Source of the DNA: Motilimonas eburnea
GTDB lineage: Bacteria; Pseudomonadota; Gammaproteobacteria; Enterobacterales; CBDFNC01
Assembly (NCBI RefSeq): GCF_021295345.1
Contig: NZ_JAIMJB010000032.1
Coordinates: 1 to 34,291 of the forward strand
Reading direction: 5' to 3'
DNA length: 34,291 bases
Position numbers and translations under genes: made by a program. Position 1 is the stretch's first letter. Every line of letters begins with the position of its first letter. Below the pieces are notes generated by a model, which was not told the DNA's origin, ran no database searches, and worked only from the letters and a program-made list of their open reading frames with translations. Positions 15,314 to 24,606 of this stretch are shown here, in pieces.

Positions 15314-18016
15314 TTAGCGATTGTCCTTTTGGGAGTCGGGTTGCATTTGTTCATGTTTCGCCTGTTGCTCGGCTTTTTTGGCTTTGGCGCGAGCAATGGC
15401 TGCTGCCACGGCTGGGTTTTTACTTGCCGCAGCCGGTTTTTCTAGCTCAGGCGCTTTGTCAGAGGCATTAACGGCTTCCCCTTGCTGCGCCGCCTTTTTT
15501 GCTTTAGCGCGAGCGATGGCTGCCGCTACTGCGGGGTTTTTAGTCGGTGCGGTTGACTGCTCTGGCTCAGATTCTGTTTTAGCTGCAGTTTCAGCTTCGC
15601 TTTGCTGGGCTGCCTTTTTCGCTTTAGCTCGAGCAATGGCTGCCGCTACCGCGGGGTTTTTAGTCGGTGCGGTTGACTGTTCTGGCTCAGATTCTGTTTT
15701 AGCTGTAGTTTCAGTTTTAGTTTCAGTTTTAGTTTCAGCCTCGCTTTGCTGGGCTGCCTTTTTCGCTTTAGCGCGAGCAATGGCTGCCGCTACTGCGGGG
15801 TTTTTAGTCGGTGCGGTTGACTGTTCTGGCTCAGATTCTGTTTTAGCTGCAGTTTCAGTTTCAGCCTCGCTTTGCTGGGCTGCCTTTTTCGCTTTAGCGC
15901 GAGCAATGGCTGCAGCTACTGCGGGGTTTTTAGTCGGTGCGGTTGACTGTTCTGGCTCAGGTTCTGTTTTAGCTGCAGTTTCAGTTTCAGCCTCGCTTTG
16001 CTGGGCTGCTTTTTTCGCTTTAGCGCGAGCGATGGCTGCCGCTACCGCGGGGTTTTTAGTCGGTGCGGTTGACTGTTCTGGCTCAGATTCTGTTTTAGCT
16101 GCAGTTTCAGTTTCAGCCTCGCTTTGCTGGGCTGCTTTTTTCGCTTTAGCGCGTGCAATGGCCGCGGCAACAGCTGAGTTTTTAGTCGGGGCTGATGATG
16201 GCGCCGGCTCAGAATCACTATGCGTTATTGGCTGTTCACCTTGCTGCGCTTCCTTTTTGGCTTTGGCGCGGGCTAGGGCAGCAGCAACGGCTGGATTAGT
16301 GGTTTTAGCCGTTGATGTTGCTTCTGCCTTGGTTTGTTGTGTTGGCGCGTCTTCTGTTTGTGCCTGTTTCGCAAGTTTGGCAAGTCTAGCTTGCTCTTTA
16401 CGCGCCTTTCTAACGGCGGCCATATCATCATCTTGTGGTTCGGCTGTGCGCTTAGCTTTAGCTCGCTCTAATGCTTGAGCCACGGCATCCTTGGCAGGTA
16501 CATCTTGATCAGTTGATGCAGTGGCCGGCGTTTTTTCTTGATTAGCTAAAATTTGTGCTTTGCGTTTTTCAGCGGCAGCCTTATTACGCGCTTCGCGCTC
16601 TTGTTTTTCACGCTCAAGGCGAGCTTGGCGCGCTTCATGGCGCACACGGGCTATTTCGGCTTTTTTCGCTTCTTGCTCTTGTTGGCGAATGTCTGCTTTG
16701 CCGATGCGGTAGTATTGAACCAGTGGAATCTCACTCGGGCACACATAGGCGCAACTGCCACACTCAATACAATCAAATAGGTTATATTCACGCAGTTTTT
16801 CATGGTCGTTTGACTTGGCATACCAGTAAAGCTGCTGAGGCAGTAAAGAGGCAGGACAGGCATCGGCGCACTCACCACAGCGAATGCAGGCCATTTCTTG
16901 CCCGGGTGTCGGCAATTCTTGCTCGGTAGGGGCAAGAATACAGTTCGTGGTTTTTATAATGGGAGCACTGGCGCTGGGCAACGTGAACCCCATCATGGGG
17001 CCGCCGATGATCAAGCGCGTTTGGTTATCTTGGGGTTGTAAATTAAAAGGGGCAATTAACTGTTCAATTGGCGTGCCAATTAATGCGTGCACGTTACCAC
17101 GTTGTTCAAAGGCTTCACCGGTAATGGTCACAATGCGTGAAATCAGTGGTTCGTCATCCATCACTGCCCGTTTAATCGCAAACGCTGTGCCCACATTGTG
17201 CATCAATATCCCCATGTCTATGGGGTAGCCTTTGTTCGGCACTTGTTTACCCGTGATCAGTTCTATCAGTTGCTTCTCACCGCCCGATGGGTACTTAGTT
17301 GGCACTACCGTGACGCGGCGTTGCTCGTTATTATACTCACTGAGGGCGGCAATCGCTTCTGGCTTGTTACTTTCAATGGCAATGACGGTGTGTTTGCACT
17401 GTGTCACTTGCTCAATAATTTCAATGCCTTGAATTAGTTCGCTAGCGTATTCACGCATCAACATATCGTCGGCAGTAATATAGGGCTCACATTCAATGCC
17501 GTTAATAATTAACAGCTCTATGTCAGCTTTTCCCGATAGCTTTAAGTGAGCTGGAAAACCAGCACCGCCTTTGCCTGCGATGCCTGCAAGGTGAATTTTG
17601 TCGATAATGGCATGGCGATCTAATTGGCTGATGTCTGTAGTAGGGTGGCGTTCAATCCAAGTGTCATTGCCATCTGGAGCAATGATGATGCTGATCTCGG
17701 GTAAACCAGAGGGGTGGCAACTCGGTCTTGATTCAATGGCTGTTACTTTGCCTGACGTACTGGCATGAACGGGCAGGGCACGAAAGTTGTTGTGGTGGGT
17801 TAATGGCTGCCCTTTGAGCACGGAGTCGCCTACCTTGACCAATAAGTCGGCTGGCTCACCAATATGTTGATTGAGTGGAATGACCAATTCGGTTGGAATC
17901 AGCGCAGGCAGAATAGGTTGTTGGTTTGAAAGGCTTTTGCGTTCAGACGGAAACACCCCGCCAGCAAAACGCCACAGTTTACCTTGTTTAATATGGGCCA
18001 AAATGGACTGGATCAA
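15314..18016 (-). CDS. rnfC: RnfC, Rnf/Rsx complex subunit C with long C-terminal repeat tail
   Basis: The peripheral subunit that takes electrons from or to NAD(H). The N-terminal half is standard: KLWRFAGGVFPSERKSLSN, the flavin/NADH-binding GIAGKGGAGFPAHLKLSGK, then an SLBB-type region and two 4Fe-4S motifs (CIRCGECADACP and CIECGSCAYVCP). After a charged coiled-coil stretch (EARQARLEREKQEREARNKA) comes a tail of eight NPAVAAAIARAKAKK-type repeats. The likely start is TTG 18016, one base after the rnfB stop, with AGAGG nine bases upstream, giving about 900 residues; the frame is open to 18079 inside rnfB. That is far longer than RnfC without repeats (about 450-500). Confidence 0.94.
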   Translation of the reverse strand: MIQSILAHIKQGKLWRFAGGVFPSERKSLSNQQPILPALIPTELVIPLNQHIGEPADLLVKVGDSVLKGQPLTHHNNFRALPVHASTSGKVTAIESRPSCHPSGLPEISIIIAPDGNDTWIERHPTTDISQLDRHAIIDKIHLAGIAGKGGAGFPAHLKLSGKADIELLIINGIECEPYITADDMLMREYASELIQGIEIIEQVTQCKHTVIAIESNKPEAIAALSEYNNEQRRVTVVPTKYPSGGEKQLIELITGKQVPNKGYPIDMGILMHNVGTAFAIKRAVMDDEPLISRIVTITGEAFEQRGNVHALIGTPIEQLIAPFNLQPQDNQTRLIIGGPMMGFTLPSASAPIIKTTNCILAPTEQELPTPGQEMACIRCGECADACPASLLPQQLYWYAKSNDHEKLREYNLFDCIECGSCAYVCPSEIPLVQYYRIGKADIRQQEQEAKKAEIARVRHEARQARLEREKQEREARNKAAAEKRKAQILANQEKTPATASTDQDVPAKDAVAQALERAKAKRTAEPQDDDMAAVRKARKEQARLAKLAKQAQTEDAPTQQTKAEATSTAKTTNPAVAAALARAKAKKEAQQGEQPITHSDSEPAPSSAPTKNSAVAAAIARAKAKKAAQQSEAETETAAKTESEPEQSTAPTKNPAVAAAIARAKAKKAAQQSEAETETAAKTEPEPEQSTAPTKNPAVAAAIARAKAKKAAQQSEAETETAAKTESEPEQSTAPTKNPAVAAAIARAKAKKAAQQSEAETKTETKTETTAKTESEPEQSTAPTKNPAVAAAIARAKAKKAAQQSEAETAAKTESEPEQSTAPTKNPAVAAAIARAKAKKAAQQGEAVNASDKAPELEKPAAASKNPAVAAAIARAKAKKAEQQAKHEQMQPDSQKDNR
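15371..16312 (-). repeat. Tandem 42-residue (126-bp) repeats in the rnfC tail
   Basis: Eight copies of the core NPAVAAAIARAKAKK (one reads NSAV, one ALAR), joined by acidic linkers such as EAETETAAKTESEPEQSTAP. The middle five units are nearly identical at DNA level with a period of 126 bases; one linker carries an extra KTETKT insertion and another lacks two residues, showing unit slippage. A ninth, degenerate unit (AVAQALERAKAKR) precedes them. The cores are basic amphipathic helices and the linkers acidic. The opposite strand has a long open frame over this tract only because the repeat is stop-free there. Confidence 0.95.
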
Positions 18017-18017
18017 A

Positions 18018-18563
18018 CTACTGAACCTCTTTAATTGAAATAGACTGCAGATCCCATTGCCATGTTTTGGTGGTTTCATCGATGGGGATCATTTCAATAC
18101 AATCTGTCGGGCAAGGCGCCACGCACAACTCGCAGCCGGTACATTCATCGGCAATCACCGTATGCATTTGCCGTGTTGCCCCTAAAATGGCATCCACTGG
18201 GCAAGCTTGGATACACTTAGTACAGCCAATGCACTCATCTTCATGGACAAAGGCGACCGCTTTCGGTTTTTCTTCGCCTTCTAGTTTAGTGGGCTCAACG
18301 CCCATTAAGTCTGCCAGCTTGACGATCACCGCTTCACCGCCCGGTGGACACTTGTTGATCGCATCGCCGTTGGCAATTGCATTGGCGTAGGGTTTACACC
18401 CAGGATAGCCACATTGGCCACATTGAGTTTGCGGCAAAATAGCATCAATCTGCTCGACGATAGGATCGGCTTTAACTTTAAAACGTATCGCGGCATAGCC
18501 TAAGATCAAACCAAAAATTAACGCAAGCAAACCAAGGCTGATGACAGCAATTCCAATACTCAT
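18018..18563 (-). CDS. rnfB: RnfB, Rnf/Rsx complex ferredoxin subunit B
   Basis: A 181-residue electron-carrier subunit. An N-terminal membrane helix (about residues 3-27, [20 protein letters not shown]) is followed by the four-Cys Fe-S motif CGQCGYPGC with NKCPPGG, then a two-cluster ferredoxin domain: [12 protein letters not shown] and [12 protein letters not shown]. It lies on the cytoplasmic face and is thought to relay electrons within the complex. The gene follows rnfA by 17 bases and its TAG is one base before the likely rnfC start. Confidence 0.97.
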
Positions 18564-21339: not shown

Positions 21340-21415
21340 TGGCTCCTCCTGCTGGGCTTGAACCAGCGACCTGCGGATTAACAGTCCGTCGCTCTACCAA
21401 CTGAGCTAAGGAGGA
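21340..21415 (-). tRNA. tRNA-Asn (GTT), copy 3 of the transcript
   Basis: On the - strand TCCTCCTTAGCTCAGTTGG starts a 76-base cloverleaf with anticodon loop CTGTTAA (anticodon GTT, Asn), T-arm GGTTCAAGCC and encoded CCA end. Acceptor stem TCCTCCT/AGGAGGA is perfect. Identical to the next two copies. Confidence 0.97.
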
Positions 21416-21437
21416 ACAATATAGATTTGTGATTGAA

Positions 21438-21513
21438 TGGCTCCTCCTGCTGGGCTTGAACCAGCGACCTGCGGATTAACAGTCCGTCGCTCTACCAACT
21501 GAGCTAAGGAGGA
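21438..21513 (-). tRNA. tRNA-Asn (GTT), copy 2 of the transcript
   Basis: Same 76-base sequence as the neighbouring copies, anticodon GTT, encoded CCA. Separated by 22 bases from copy 3 and 24 bases from copy 1; the spacers are AT-rich and unrelated to each other. Confidence 0.97.
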
Positions 21514-21537
21514 ATTATTCAATTTTTTGTCTTTGCT

Positions 21538-21613
21538 TGGCTCCTCCTGCTGGGCTTGAACCAGCGACCTGCGGATTAACAGTCCGTCGCTCTACCAACT
21601 GAGCTAAGGAGGA
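21538..21613 (-). tRNA. tRNA-Asn (GTT), copy 1 of the transcript
   Basis: First of three identical tandem tRNA-Asn genes on the - strand, anticodon GTT, encoded CCA. The promoter at 21703-21731 lies about 90 bases upstream and presumably makes one tricistronic precursor processed by RNase P and RNase E. Confidence 0.97.
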
Positions 21614-21702
21614 ACAATTGCAAATTAGGCTGTTATCTTAACTTGTGGTCTTAACTACCACTTATGCTGCCTTGTTAAGGGCGTGTCTCAACAACGGGGC
21701 GC

Positions 21703-21731
21703 ATATTAAAACCCGAAGTTAACGCTGTCAA
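21703..21731 (-). promoter_or_regulatory. Sigma-70 promoter of the tRNA-Asn genes
   Basis: On the - strand, TTGACA (21726-21731) and TAATAT (21703-21708) are spaced by exactly 17 bases. The bases after the -10 read GCGCCCC, a GC-rich discriminator of the kind linked to stringent (ppGpp) control of stable RNA genes. This is the clearest promoter in the window. Confidence 0.88.
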
Positions 21732-22000
21732 CACTTGACCTAATAAAAAACAGATTCTGTGTTTAGTTGGTGAATTTCTAAGCTCTGATACGGCATCACT
21801 CCCTCTCAAGTGAGAGATTATGGGCCAGAACAAGGGGGTTAAACATTACTTTTTGGACTGTTGTTGATGAAATTAGCTTCAATGCTCTATTTTTCAATTT
21901 TTGCGATAAAATTGAGGATGAAATACATCAACTAAAAATGAAAGTTGTTACATTAATCACAAAATATTTTTTCTGTCTTCCCCTGCCGTATTCATCAGAG

Positions 22001-22070
22001 TTATTCACAATTGGCTGGCAAGCCTATGGCACAAGGCGTGGCTTGAGTTATCCACTATTTTTGTGGATAA
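22001..22070. promoter_or_regulatory. DnaA-box cluster upstream of uvrB, probable DARS1 counterpart
   Basis: Three DnaA boxes: TTATTCACA (22001-22009, + strand, one mismatch), TTATCCACT (22048-22056, + strand, one mismatch) and TGTGGATAA (22062-22070, a perfect box on the - strand). The last two form an 8-bp inverted repeat TTATCCAC/GTGGATAA with a seven-base gap. In E. coli the ADP-DnaA reactivating site DARS1, which has three clustered DnaA boxes, lies between bioD and uvrB (from memory). Same neighbour and box number suggest the same element here. It would promote ADP release from DnaA and so help time initiation at oriC. It is also possible that DnaA simply regulates uvrB. Confidence 0.7.
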
Positions 22071-22611
22071 GTATGTGAGTTATGGTCTGCTAAGTGCTTC
22101 AAAGCCTTGCTGTGCTTGGCTTGAGGAAAACGTAAAGAATAAGGGGGGATTAATCAAAATGTATAAATATCAGTGGCTTAATTATGTCAATAGTGTCATG
22201 TTATGAAATCCTTACAACTTGAGTTGGCTCAGGGTGGCTAATTAATCAACTGTGCATTATTTTCAATTTTGAAAGTGATTTAGTGTGAATAGTCAACCCA
22301 AAAAATTAAAAAATCGAGATTATTTTGCTTGAACTTTCGCTTCCATGCGTATAGCGATATTGCTGCGTGTTAACCAAAGCCTACGCTTAACATGGGCTTG
22401 AGCTGGCACAAGGGCATCAAATCTCCGTTTTTAAGGTGTTATGATTGAAAACAGCCGATGTAGCTAAAGCAAGTGGTTTGTTTAGCCGCTCTGAGAGTCA
22501 AAAGTATTAAAAACCTGATGAAAGTGGTTTTACTAGGTTAAGATAGTGAAAAATAAAACACTGGCATTCTCTTAATTTTAATCTATGTAAAATCCTCAAG
22601 GAGTCCTATAG
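22071..22611. other. Gene-free region before uvrB
   Basis: No convincing gene. It is AT-rich and contains small inverted repeats: GCTAAA/TTTAGC near 22464-22486 and AAAACC/GGTTTT near 22511-22533. The uvrB promoter must lie here. I find no CTGT-N8-ACAG LexA box by eye, in contrast to SOS-controlled uvrB of E. coli. The remaining part of the gap, 21732-22000, contains CTCTCA-AG-TGAGAG at 21803-21816 and nothing else I can name. Confidence 0.5.
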
Positions 22612-24606
22612 ATGAAGTCGTTCCAACTCGAATCCGCATTTAAGCCAAGTGGCGATCAGCCACAGGCCATTAAAACGCTGGTTGAAGGCTTTGATGACGG
22701 GTTAGCTCACCAAGTGCTGCTTGGGGTGACGGGCTCAGGCAAAACCTTTACCGTAGCGAATTTAATCACCGAGCTAAATCGCCCGACCATCGTCATGGCG
22801 CCTAATAAAACCTTAGCCGCTCAGTTATACGGTGAAATGAAAGAGTTCTTTCCGAATAACGCAGTGGAATATTTTGTTTCTTATTATGATTATTACCAGC
22901 CGGAAGCCTATGTGCCCAGTACCGACACTTTTATCGACAAGGATGCCTCGGTTAACGATCATATCGAGCAGATGCGTTTATCGGCAACGAAAGCGTTAAT
23001 GGAGCGCCGTGATGTCATCATAGTTGCCTCTGTCTCGGCTATCTATGGTTTGGGCGATCCTCAGTCATACTTATCTATGATGCTGCATCTAACCACAGGT
23101 GATATTGTCGACCAGCGCGATATTTTACGCCGCCTTGCAGAGATCCAATATACCCGTAATGACATGGCATTCAGTCGCGGTACGTTTCGCGTACGCGGTG
23201 AAGTCATCGATATTTTTCCGGCAGAATCGGATAAACATGCGGTGCGCATTGAATTGTTTGATGGTGAAGTTGAGCGCTTAAGCCTGTTTGATCCCTTAAC
23301 CGGACAAAGCATCAATGATGTTCCTCGGATCACGGTTTACCCCAAAACACACTACGTGACGCCAAGACAAACTATTTTAGATGCCATCGAAAATATCAAG
23401 GTAGAGCTAGCCGAGCGTAAGCAACAATTACTTGATAATAATAAGTTAATAGAAGAGCAAAGGATCAGTCAGCGCACCCAATACGATATTGAAATGATGC
23501 AGGAGTTAGGTTACTGCTCTGGCATTGAGAACTATTCACGCTATCTTTCTGGTCGCGCTCCGGGCGATGCGCCGCCTACCTTGATCGATTATCTACCAGC
23601 CGATGGCTTAATGATCATCGATGAAAGCCATGTAACCGTGCCGCAAATCGGCGCCATGTTTAAAGGTGACCGGTCACGTAAGGAAACCTTGGTTGAATAT
23701 GGTTTTCGACTTCCCTCAGCATTAGATAACCGCCCCCTTAAATTCGACGAATTTGAGCGTATTGCGCCGCAAACCTTGTACGTTTCCGCCACGCCTGGGC
23801 CTTACGAACTAGAGCAAACCAATGGCGAGTATACCGAGCAAATCATTCGTCCAACCGGGTTACTCGATCCCGAAATAGAAGTACGCCCAGTCGCAACTCA
23901 AGTGGATGATTTACTGTCAGAAATTAGAATTAGAACAGCTAAAAATGAACGGGTGCTGGCAACCACATTAACCAAGCGTATGGCCGAGGACTTATCCGAG
24001 TATTTAAGCGATCATGGCGTTAAGGTGCGTTATCTACATTCCGATATCGACACCGTTGAACGGATGGAGATTATTCGTGATTTACGTTTAGGCGAGTTTG
24101 ATGTGTTGGTTGGGATAAACTTGTTGCGTGAAGGCTTAGATATGCCTGAGGTGTCCTTGGTGGCCATTTTAGATGCTGACAAAGAAGGGTTTTTACGCTC
24201 TGAGCGTTCCTTGATCCAAACCATAGGTCGCGCCGCGCGTAATGTGAAAGGTAAAGCGATTTTGTATGCAGATACGGTAACCAAGTCAATGCGTAAAGCC
24301 ATCGACGTGACCGAGCGTCGCCGAGAGCTGCAGCATCAGTTTAACCTTGATAATGGCATTACGCCAAAAGGGGTGAGCAAGGCGATCTTAGATATCATGG
24401 CGCTGGGCACAGGCAACAGCAAGGTCAGTAAGGTGGCAGAGCCTAAGGCAAGCTATGGCAAGCTTGATTCACAAACCTTATTGAAACAAATTGCGGATTG
24501 TGAGGCGAAAATGTTCGAACACGCTAAAAACTTAGAGTTTGAACAAGCCGCAGCGATGCGTGATGAAGTGGCCAGCCTGCAACAGCAGTTGATCACCTTG
24601 AGCTAG
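22612..24606 (+). CDS. uvrB: UvrABC excinuclease subunit B
   Basis: The central damage-verifying helicase-like subunit of nucleotide excision repair, 664 residues (E. coli 673). The Walker A loop GVTGSGKT ends at Lys44-Thr45, the damage-probing beta-hairpin [12 protein letters not shown] lies near 92-103, the DESHVT box near 337, and the helicase motif TIGRAARN near 540. The C-terminal UVR domain ([20 protein letters not shown]) that binds UvrC is complete. ATG 22612 follows AAGGAGT at ideal spacing. It stands alone with a 1-kb regulatory gap upstream. Confidence 0.98.

Follow-up and report, generated by a model that had tools for sequence, protein, structure and literature searches.

In Escherichia coli, where DnaA-reactivating sequence 1 (DARS1) has so far been worked out, this element is bound by DnaA in vivo, its boxes III–II appearing as a “double DnaA box” in a 2024 table of chromatin immunoprecipitation sequencing results (PMC11317965), its head-to-head boxes I and II are described as essential (PMC10380432), and it is active without added factors (PMC5742627). 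Sequences resembling DARS1 and DARS2 are described as present in many proteobacteria (PMC10380432) and DARS-like sequences in E. coli-like species (PMC5010248), DARS positions are reported as conserved among related bacteria (PMC5742627), and a DARS2 alignment covers Vibrio cholerae and Shewanella denitrificans (PMC8682772). DARS1-like conservation beyond E. coli is already published, in general terms. Here we describe a cluster of DnaA boxes upstream of uvrB in Motilimonas eburnea, on contig NZ_JAIMJB010000032.1 of assembly GCF_021295345.1, the whole analysed stretch of which (34,291 nucleotides, forward strand) is referred to as the window. The core of this cluster is very probably the DARS1 of its host: by sequence it is an orthologue of the E. 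coli element, from which we infer its function.

A DARS1-type core before uvrB

The core and its neighbours are as follows, boxes being scored against the consensus TTWTNCACA.

22048..22082, + strand: DARS1-type core, boxes I, II and III in this order, with spacers of 5 bp (I–II) and 3 bp (II–III)
22048..22056, + strand: DnaA box I, TTATCCACT, departing from the consensus at base 9 only
22062..22070, - strand: DnaA box II, TTATCCACA, no mismatch, facing box I head-to-head
22074..22082, - strand: DnaA box III, TAACTCACA, two mismatches, in the same place as box III of E. coli DARS1
22612..24606, + strand: uvrB, a 664-aa open reading frame (ORF), conserved neighbour of the core
21340..21613, - strand: three tRNA-Asn genes (ARAGORN), neighbours on the core’s other side

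Read along the forward strand, the core is TTATCCACT-ATTTT-TGTGGATAA-GTA-TGTGAGTTA, a 9-5-9-3-9 plan in which boxes II and III are opposed to box I. A third box, at 22074–22082, takes the place it has in E. coli and completes a DARS-type core in the window. The initial annotation had noted three boxes within 22001–22070, two of them as a perfect inverted pair, and had taken these as a DARS1-like trio. All three are present (22001–22009, 22048–22056 and 22062–22070) and the likeness to DARS1 stands by sequence, but the trio is made up of the boxes at 22048, 22062 and 22074 rather than 22001, 22048 and 22062; the box at 22001 is not part of the core, and the true box III had been overlooked. The inverted pair is perfect as an 8-bp repeat (TTATCCAC...GTGGATAA), but box I departs from the consensus at base 9.

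The core lies in the gap between the tRNA-Asn genes and uvrB (21614–22611), which was rightly described as gene-free: it holds no ORF of ≥80 aa, and an Rfam search of the gap gave no match above gathering score, the tRNAs falling outside it. The claimed absence of bioD also held, as tblastn with E. coli BioD found no match anywhere in the window.

Single boxes with ≤1 mismatch occur in the window at chance level (36 observed against 34.85 expected), and the evidence therefore lies in the arrangement of the boxes. The head-to-head pair of boxes I and II at 5-bp spacing was found once in the window and never in order-2 Markov sequence totalling 5.14 Mb. The full-core pattern (TATNCACNNNNNNTGTGNATAANNNTGTG, ≤1 mismatch) matched in 40 of 59 genomes of relatives and in 85 of 114 class-wide genomes, the host’s own genome being in both sets, and the reversed pattern, used as a control, gave no match in either the 59 or the 114 genomes.

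Conservation upstream of uvrB

A UvrB relative is encoded in 588 stretches (tblastn), and 131 uvrB loci were scanned, comprising the 80 best-scoring of these candidates, E. coli, 49 further relatives and the window. Of the 131 loci, 113 have a core ahead of uvrB, 105 of them detected by a scan of up to 4 kb upstream and eight by coordinates, 1.6–2.1 kb upstream, at loci whose scanned DNA extended only 1.5 kb (G009, G017, G018, G022, G033, G041, G042, G045). The orientation toward uvrB was identical in all 105 scanned cores. Within 4 kb upstream, pairs with at most one mismatch in total were spaced by 5 bp in 99 of the 131 loci, no other spacing between 0 and 20 being seen in more than two, and the reversed-sequence control gave one locus each at 1, 3, 5 and 14. 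Box spacing and orientation are thus conserved among relatives, as the initial annotation had proposed to check, and its three boxes are all kept in the four species of the genus examined. Within the genus, conservation in the gap peaks in the windows over the core (0.82–0.85 at 22039–22078, most other windows <0.70).

The distance from core to uvrB in the 105 scanned loci is bimodal, at about 0.3–0.9 kb (n = 72) or 1.6–3.1 kb (n = 33), and in both far loci examined, Alteromonas and Marinobacter, an ORF for a MATE-type transporter lies between core and uvrB, with Pfam support for the Alteromonas locus. A bioC or bioD match was found in 25 of 132 loci, in E. coli and enterobacteria. In genera that include Aeromonas, Shewanella, Colwellia and Marinobacter, tRNA-Asn is found at most 2.5 kb ahead of uvrB (1.5–2.5 kb searched in most loci), and in Aeromonas an opposite-strand tRNA-Asn gene stands between core and uvrB. 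Since tRNA-Asn, bioD or a MATE gene can all be the neighbour, the suggestion that the element keeps its place by uvrB independently of what lies upstream is well founded; we infer that tRNA-Asn is an older neighbour than bioD. In a tree of 84 UvrB sequences the genus adjoins family f10, outside the Shewanella branch.

Earlier absence calls, at 36 of 80 and 59 of 132 loci (the window counted twice in 132), came from searching 1.5 kb upstream only and were discarded; many were false negatives, because the whole-genome pattern search found cores 1.6–3.1 kb away. Some observations nevertheless weigh against the reading of the core as a DARS1 fixed beside uvrB. Eighteen of the 131 loci have no core; four of these covered <2.3 kb upstream (L115, L130, L134, L139) and the other 14 covered 4 kb, one of the latter being a Shewanella (L059). 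The core pattern is absent from 19 of the 59 genomes of relatives. The sample did not include eight of the 58 relatives in which uvrB was matched (G005, G015, G021, G037, G043, G044, G047, G051), and seven of them have no core anywhere, the eighth having one beside mutH; the rate of 113/131 is overstated because these seven lack a core by pattern. Box III is also loosely kept, with two mismatches here and three to four in 10 of the 105 scanned cores.

Outside the order the association with uvrB was not seen in the DNA covered. None of 29 class-level outgroup uvrB loci had a core within ≤1.5 kb upstream (four cover 116–1013 bp), which leaves room for a core farther off, and in outgroup genomes with core and uvrB on one contig none lay close upstream among the matches listed, their coordinates being compared by eye; in G135 a core lies 0.6 kb downstream of uvrB. 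Chromosomal position between oriC and the terminus was counted only where dnaA and uvrB share one contig, the host’s own genome being a draft of 71 contigs. The relatives measured were 11 with a uvrB-linked core, whose uvrB lies at 0.58–0.99 of the half-contig from dnaA (E. coli 0.66), and three with no core (0.24–0.81); these ranges overlap, so position does not separate core-bearing from core-less relatives.

Box I is imperfect throughout

Box I carries at least one mismatch to the consensus in all 105 scanned uvrB-linked cores, in a scan that permitted a perfect box. Box II is perfect in 101 of the 105, and in 98 a perfect box II is combined with exactly one mismatch in box I, mostly at base 9, at base 4 in Aeromonas and at base 1 in a few. 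In contrast, boxes I and II are both perfect in 23 of 29 class-level loci outside the order, which were drawn from 85 genomes with a match to a pattern that left base 9 of box I free. We read this as a weak box I that would be maintained by selection, although the loci share kinship and the counts are therefore not of independent events.

Accessory box and flanking palindromes

Three further features flank the core.

22001..22009, + strand: accessory DnaA box, TTATTCACA, perfect, 47 bp upstream of box I on the same strand, outside the core
22100..22124, no strand: downstream palindrome of the AAnCC-N11-GGnTT type, centre +64 from the start of box I, a good copy
22017..22041, no strand: place of the upstream palindrome, centre -19, degenerate in the window

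The accessory box is kept in all four species of the genus examined. A perfect TTATNCACA at -46/-47 was found in 14 of the 105 core loci, and the scanned flanks of 65 representatives contain 15 perfect copies, nine of them at -46/-47 on the strand of box I; these nine come from this genus, family f10, Oceanisphaera/Oceanimonas and Pseudidiomarina. Perfect boxes at other offsets among the 105 loci include -35 in four (Erwinia, Pantoea and G020) and -61 in two of family f2, a third f2 locus having the -61 box with one mismatch. None of the E. coli, Shewanella, Aeromonas or Photobacterium loci has a box with 0–1 mismatch at -46/-47. In this and some other families, a perfect box 47 bp upstream would help load DnaA on a weak core.

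The palindromes emerged from column conservation, which shows AAnCC-N11-GGnTT around +64 and -19 (36 and 39 representatives). In a reciprocal test with position weight matrices (PWM) on 39 near representatives (<60% identical), the +64 matrix ranked -19 next, and likewise in reverse. In 26 far representatives, which were not used for the matrices, -19 was level with two offsets inside the core, and +64 was outside the top eight offsets. By these ranks both sets support the upstream palindrome, whereas support for the downstream one is confined to the near set. Raw arm pairing reaches 0.60 at +64, the average for all centres being 0.28; at -19 it is 0.48, barely over the neighbouring centres 6, 30 and -4 (0.46–0.47), and the -19 palindrome therefore rests on the PWM tests. 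When the host’s genome was searched with the palindrome only, each strand yielded 411 places and the reversed control 67, an excess that in our reading comes from like-shaped terminators swamping the search, hence no regulon can be inferred from it. A hairpin reading of the palindromes, judged by eye alone, was set aside.

For E. coli DARS1, a 42-bp stretch after the last box is reported to be required for full activity in vitro (PMC4585315, citing Fujimitsu 2009). A possible counterpart here of the DARS1 accessory region, about 50 bp that enhance ADP release, is the palindrome at +52 to +76, kept in the near loci and not at this offset in the far ones, and the 42-bp stretch may correspond to it. 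The flanking palindromes may be part of an accessory region for full DARS1 activity, or sites of another protein. We met no report of the -46/-47 box, the flanking palindromes or the constant imperfection of box I in a literature of which few subscription papers were covered; Fujimitsu 2009 may show part of this.

Two observations concern the surrounding DNA. The stretch at 22177–22202 (CTTAATTATGTCAATAGTGTCATGTT) is well conserved with respect to G001 and G002 (0.70–0.78 in 40-column windows), and less so in G003. RnfC, encoded at 15314–18079, ends in a long tail built of repeated units rich in Ala and Lys (KNPAVAAAIARAKAKKAAQQ).

Further cores in the host genome and host DnaA

The host’s genome (G000) holds four full cores by pattern, the reversed control giving none. 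A search with boxes I and II alone, at ≤2 mismatches, returned 13 distinct places, of which the four best have TGTG at the position of box III and the other nine do not. Domains III and IV of host DnaA are 89% and 94% identical, respectively, to those of E. coli DnaA, and the residues examined as presumed contacts to the box or the nucleotide are unchanged.

Two of the four cores lie in the rppH–mutH gap, at G000:C66:163634-163668 and 163989-164023, 355 bp apart (L143, L144, L190). Pairs of cores at like distances occur in G003, 355 bp apart on C105, and in G014 and G038, about 340 bp apart. A further full core, at G000:C13:9964-9998 (L142), lies between pta and a small ORF adjoining a methyltransferase gene; a similar core stands beside pta in G002, and a near-identical core occurs in G001. 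A DARS3 is mentioned once, as speculation, in PMC4585315.

Cores adjoining priA

Outside the order, cores of the same 9-5-9-3-9 form were observed next to priA. Among 30 priA loci (L273–L302), one per gammaproteobacterial family outside the window’s order, a core lies 51–176 bp upstream of the extrapolated priA start in 20. The 30 loci were the top-ranking of 105 genomes that matched a PriA query taken from a core-bearing priA locus. All 20 cores share one orientation, 16 have boxes I and II both perfect, and the reversed-sequence control gave 0 of 30. Of the 29 class-level core loci, 11 adjoin priA; eight of the 20 priA-core genomes were already among these and 12 are new. The priA–rpmE gap of E. 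coli has one box, with one mismatch.

The class-level cores could be part of oriC, however no match to dnaA, mnmG, rpmH, rnpA, yidC or mnmE was found within ≤1.5 kb on each side of the 29 loci L240–L268, a check that covered these loci and not the 12 new priA loci. In Francisella, priA is among the marker genes near the predicted oriC (PMC5859110), which counts against a non-oriC reading of the priA-linked cores. We met no report of a priA-linked DARS core, few subscription papers being covered; if it acts likewise, it would extend the DARS idea to bacteria for which we met no report.

Proposed mechanism and alternative explanations

By analogy with the E. coli work, binding of DnaA, release of ADP and an effect on initiation would be expected at the window core. 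Two ADP-DnaA molecules would bind boxes I and II face to face, with a third DnaA on box III behind box II, and contact between their AAA+ domains would loosen ADP. The empty DnaA would then leave the DNA, take up ATP and start the next round of replication.

The alternative that has most in its favour, though we consider it unlikely, is that DnaA bound to the boxes mainly represses a uvrB promoter and so ties repair to the cell cycle, with recharging of DnaA minor or absent. In E. coli, DnaA indeed represses uvrB from a promoter overlapping DARS1 (PMC6015884), and the element travels with uvrB. A core 1.6–3.1 kb away, as in 33 of the 105 scanned loci, is however far for ordinary repression; the MATE-type ORF in both far loci examined and the opposite-strand tRNA-Asn gene of Aeromonas stand in between, and the same core form occurs at DARS2. 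Furthermore, a consensus scan of 21600–22640 found no promoter-like site on the + strand, although real promoters can escape such scans.

A site that simply titrates DnaA, with no catalytic role, is quite improbable. E. coli work in PMC12371093 can be cited in its favour, but titration leaves the fixed spacing, the fixed orientation and the imperfect box I of every scanned core unexplained. As for the possibility that box-like words have come together by chance in this AT-rich gap, single one-mismatch boxes do occur in the window at the chance level, but the simulated sequence with no pair, the reversed pattern with no match and the conservation refute it for the core, and we give it practically no weight.

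The reading of the window core as the host’s DARS1 can be set in a wider and much more tentative picture. DARS cores may be an old gammaproteobacterial element that settled by various genes of replication and repair, namely uvrB and mutH/rppH within the order and priA outside it; the uvrB-linked version would have a weak box I kept by selection and one or two palindromes used by another protein or by DnaA to tune or loop the core. A fixed uvrB-side element in many families makes the control of initiation comparable across the order, and its natural variants, namely the weak box I, the -46/-47 box and the palindromes, are material for asking which parts matter.

Comparison with known systems

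The locus resembles datA in being a cluster of DnaA boxes outside oriC, a comparison made by description and not by sequence; datA, unlike DARS, promotes ATP hydrolysis with IHF rather than nucleotide exchange (PMC10380432). DARS2, in the rppH–mutH gap of E. coli, shares its core geometry with the window core but differs in carrying sites for IHF and Fis, spread over 455 bp (PMC5742627). Unlike DARS2, the window core is not at mutH, neither mutH nor rppH having a match in the window, and the host’s own DARS2 candidates are those at G000:C66:163634 and 163989.

E. coli DARS1, in the bioD–uvrB gap (NC_000913.3), reads TTATCCACT-ATTCC-TGTGGATAA-CCA-TGTGTATTA. It differs from the window in having bioD rather than tRNA-Asn as its neighbour and no perfect box at -46/-47, and in the distance from the start of box I to uvrB, 422 bp against 564 bp in the window. 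E. coli uvrB also has a LexA box (PMC6015884), while none (CTGTN8ACAG, ≤1 mismatch) was found in the window’s gap before uvrB, from 17 matches across the window. Common to both are identical boxes I and II, spacers of 5 and 3 bp, the place of box III, and a location upstream of uvrB in the same sense.
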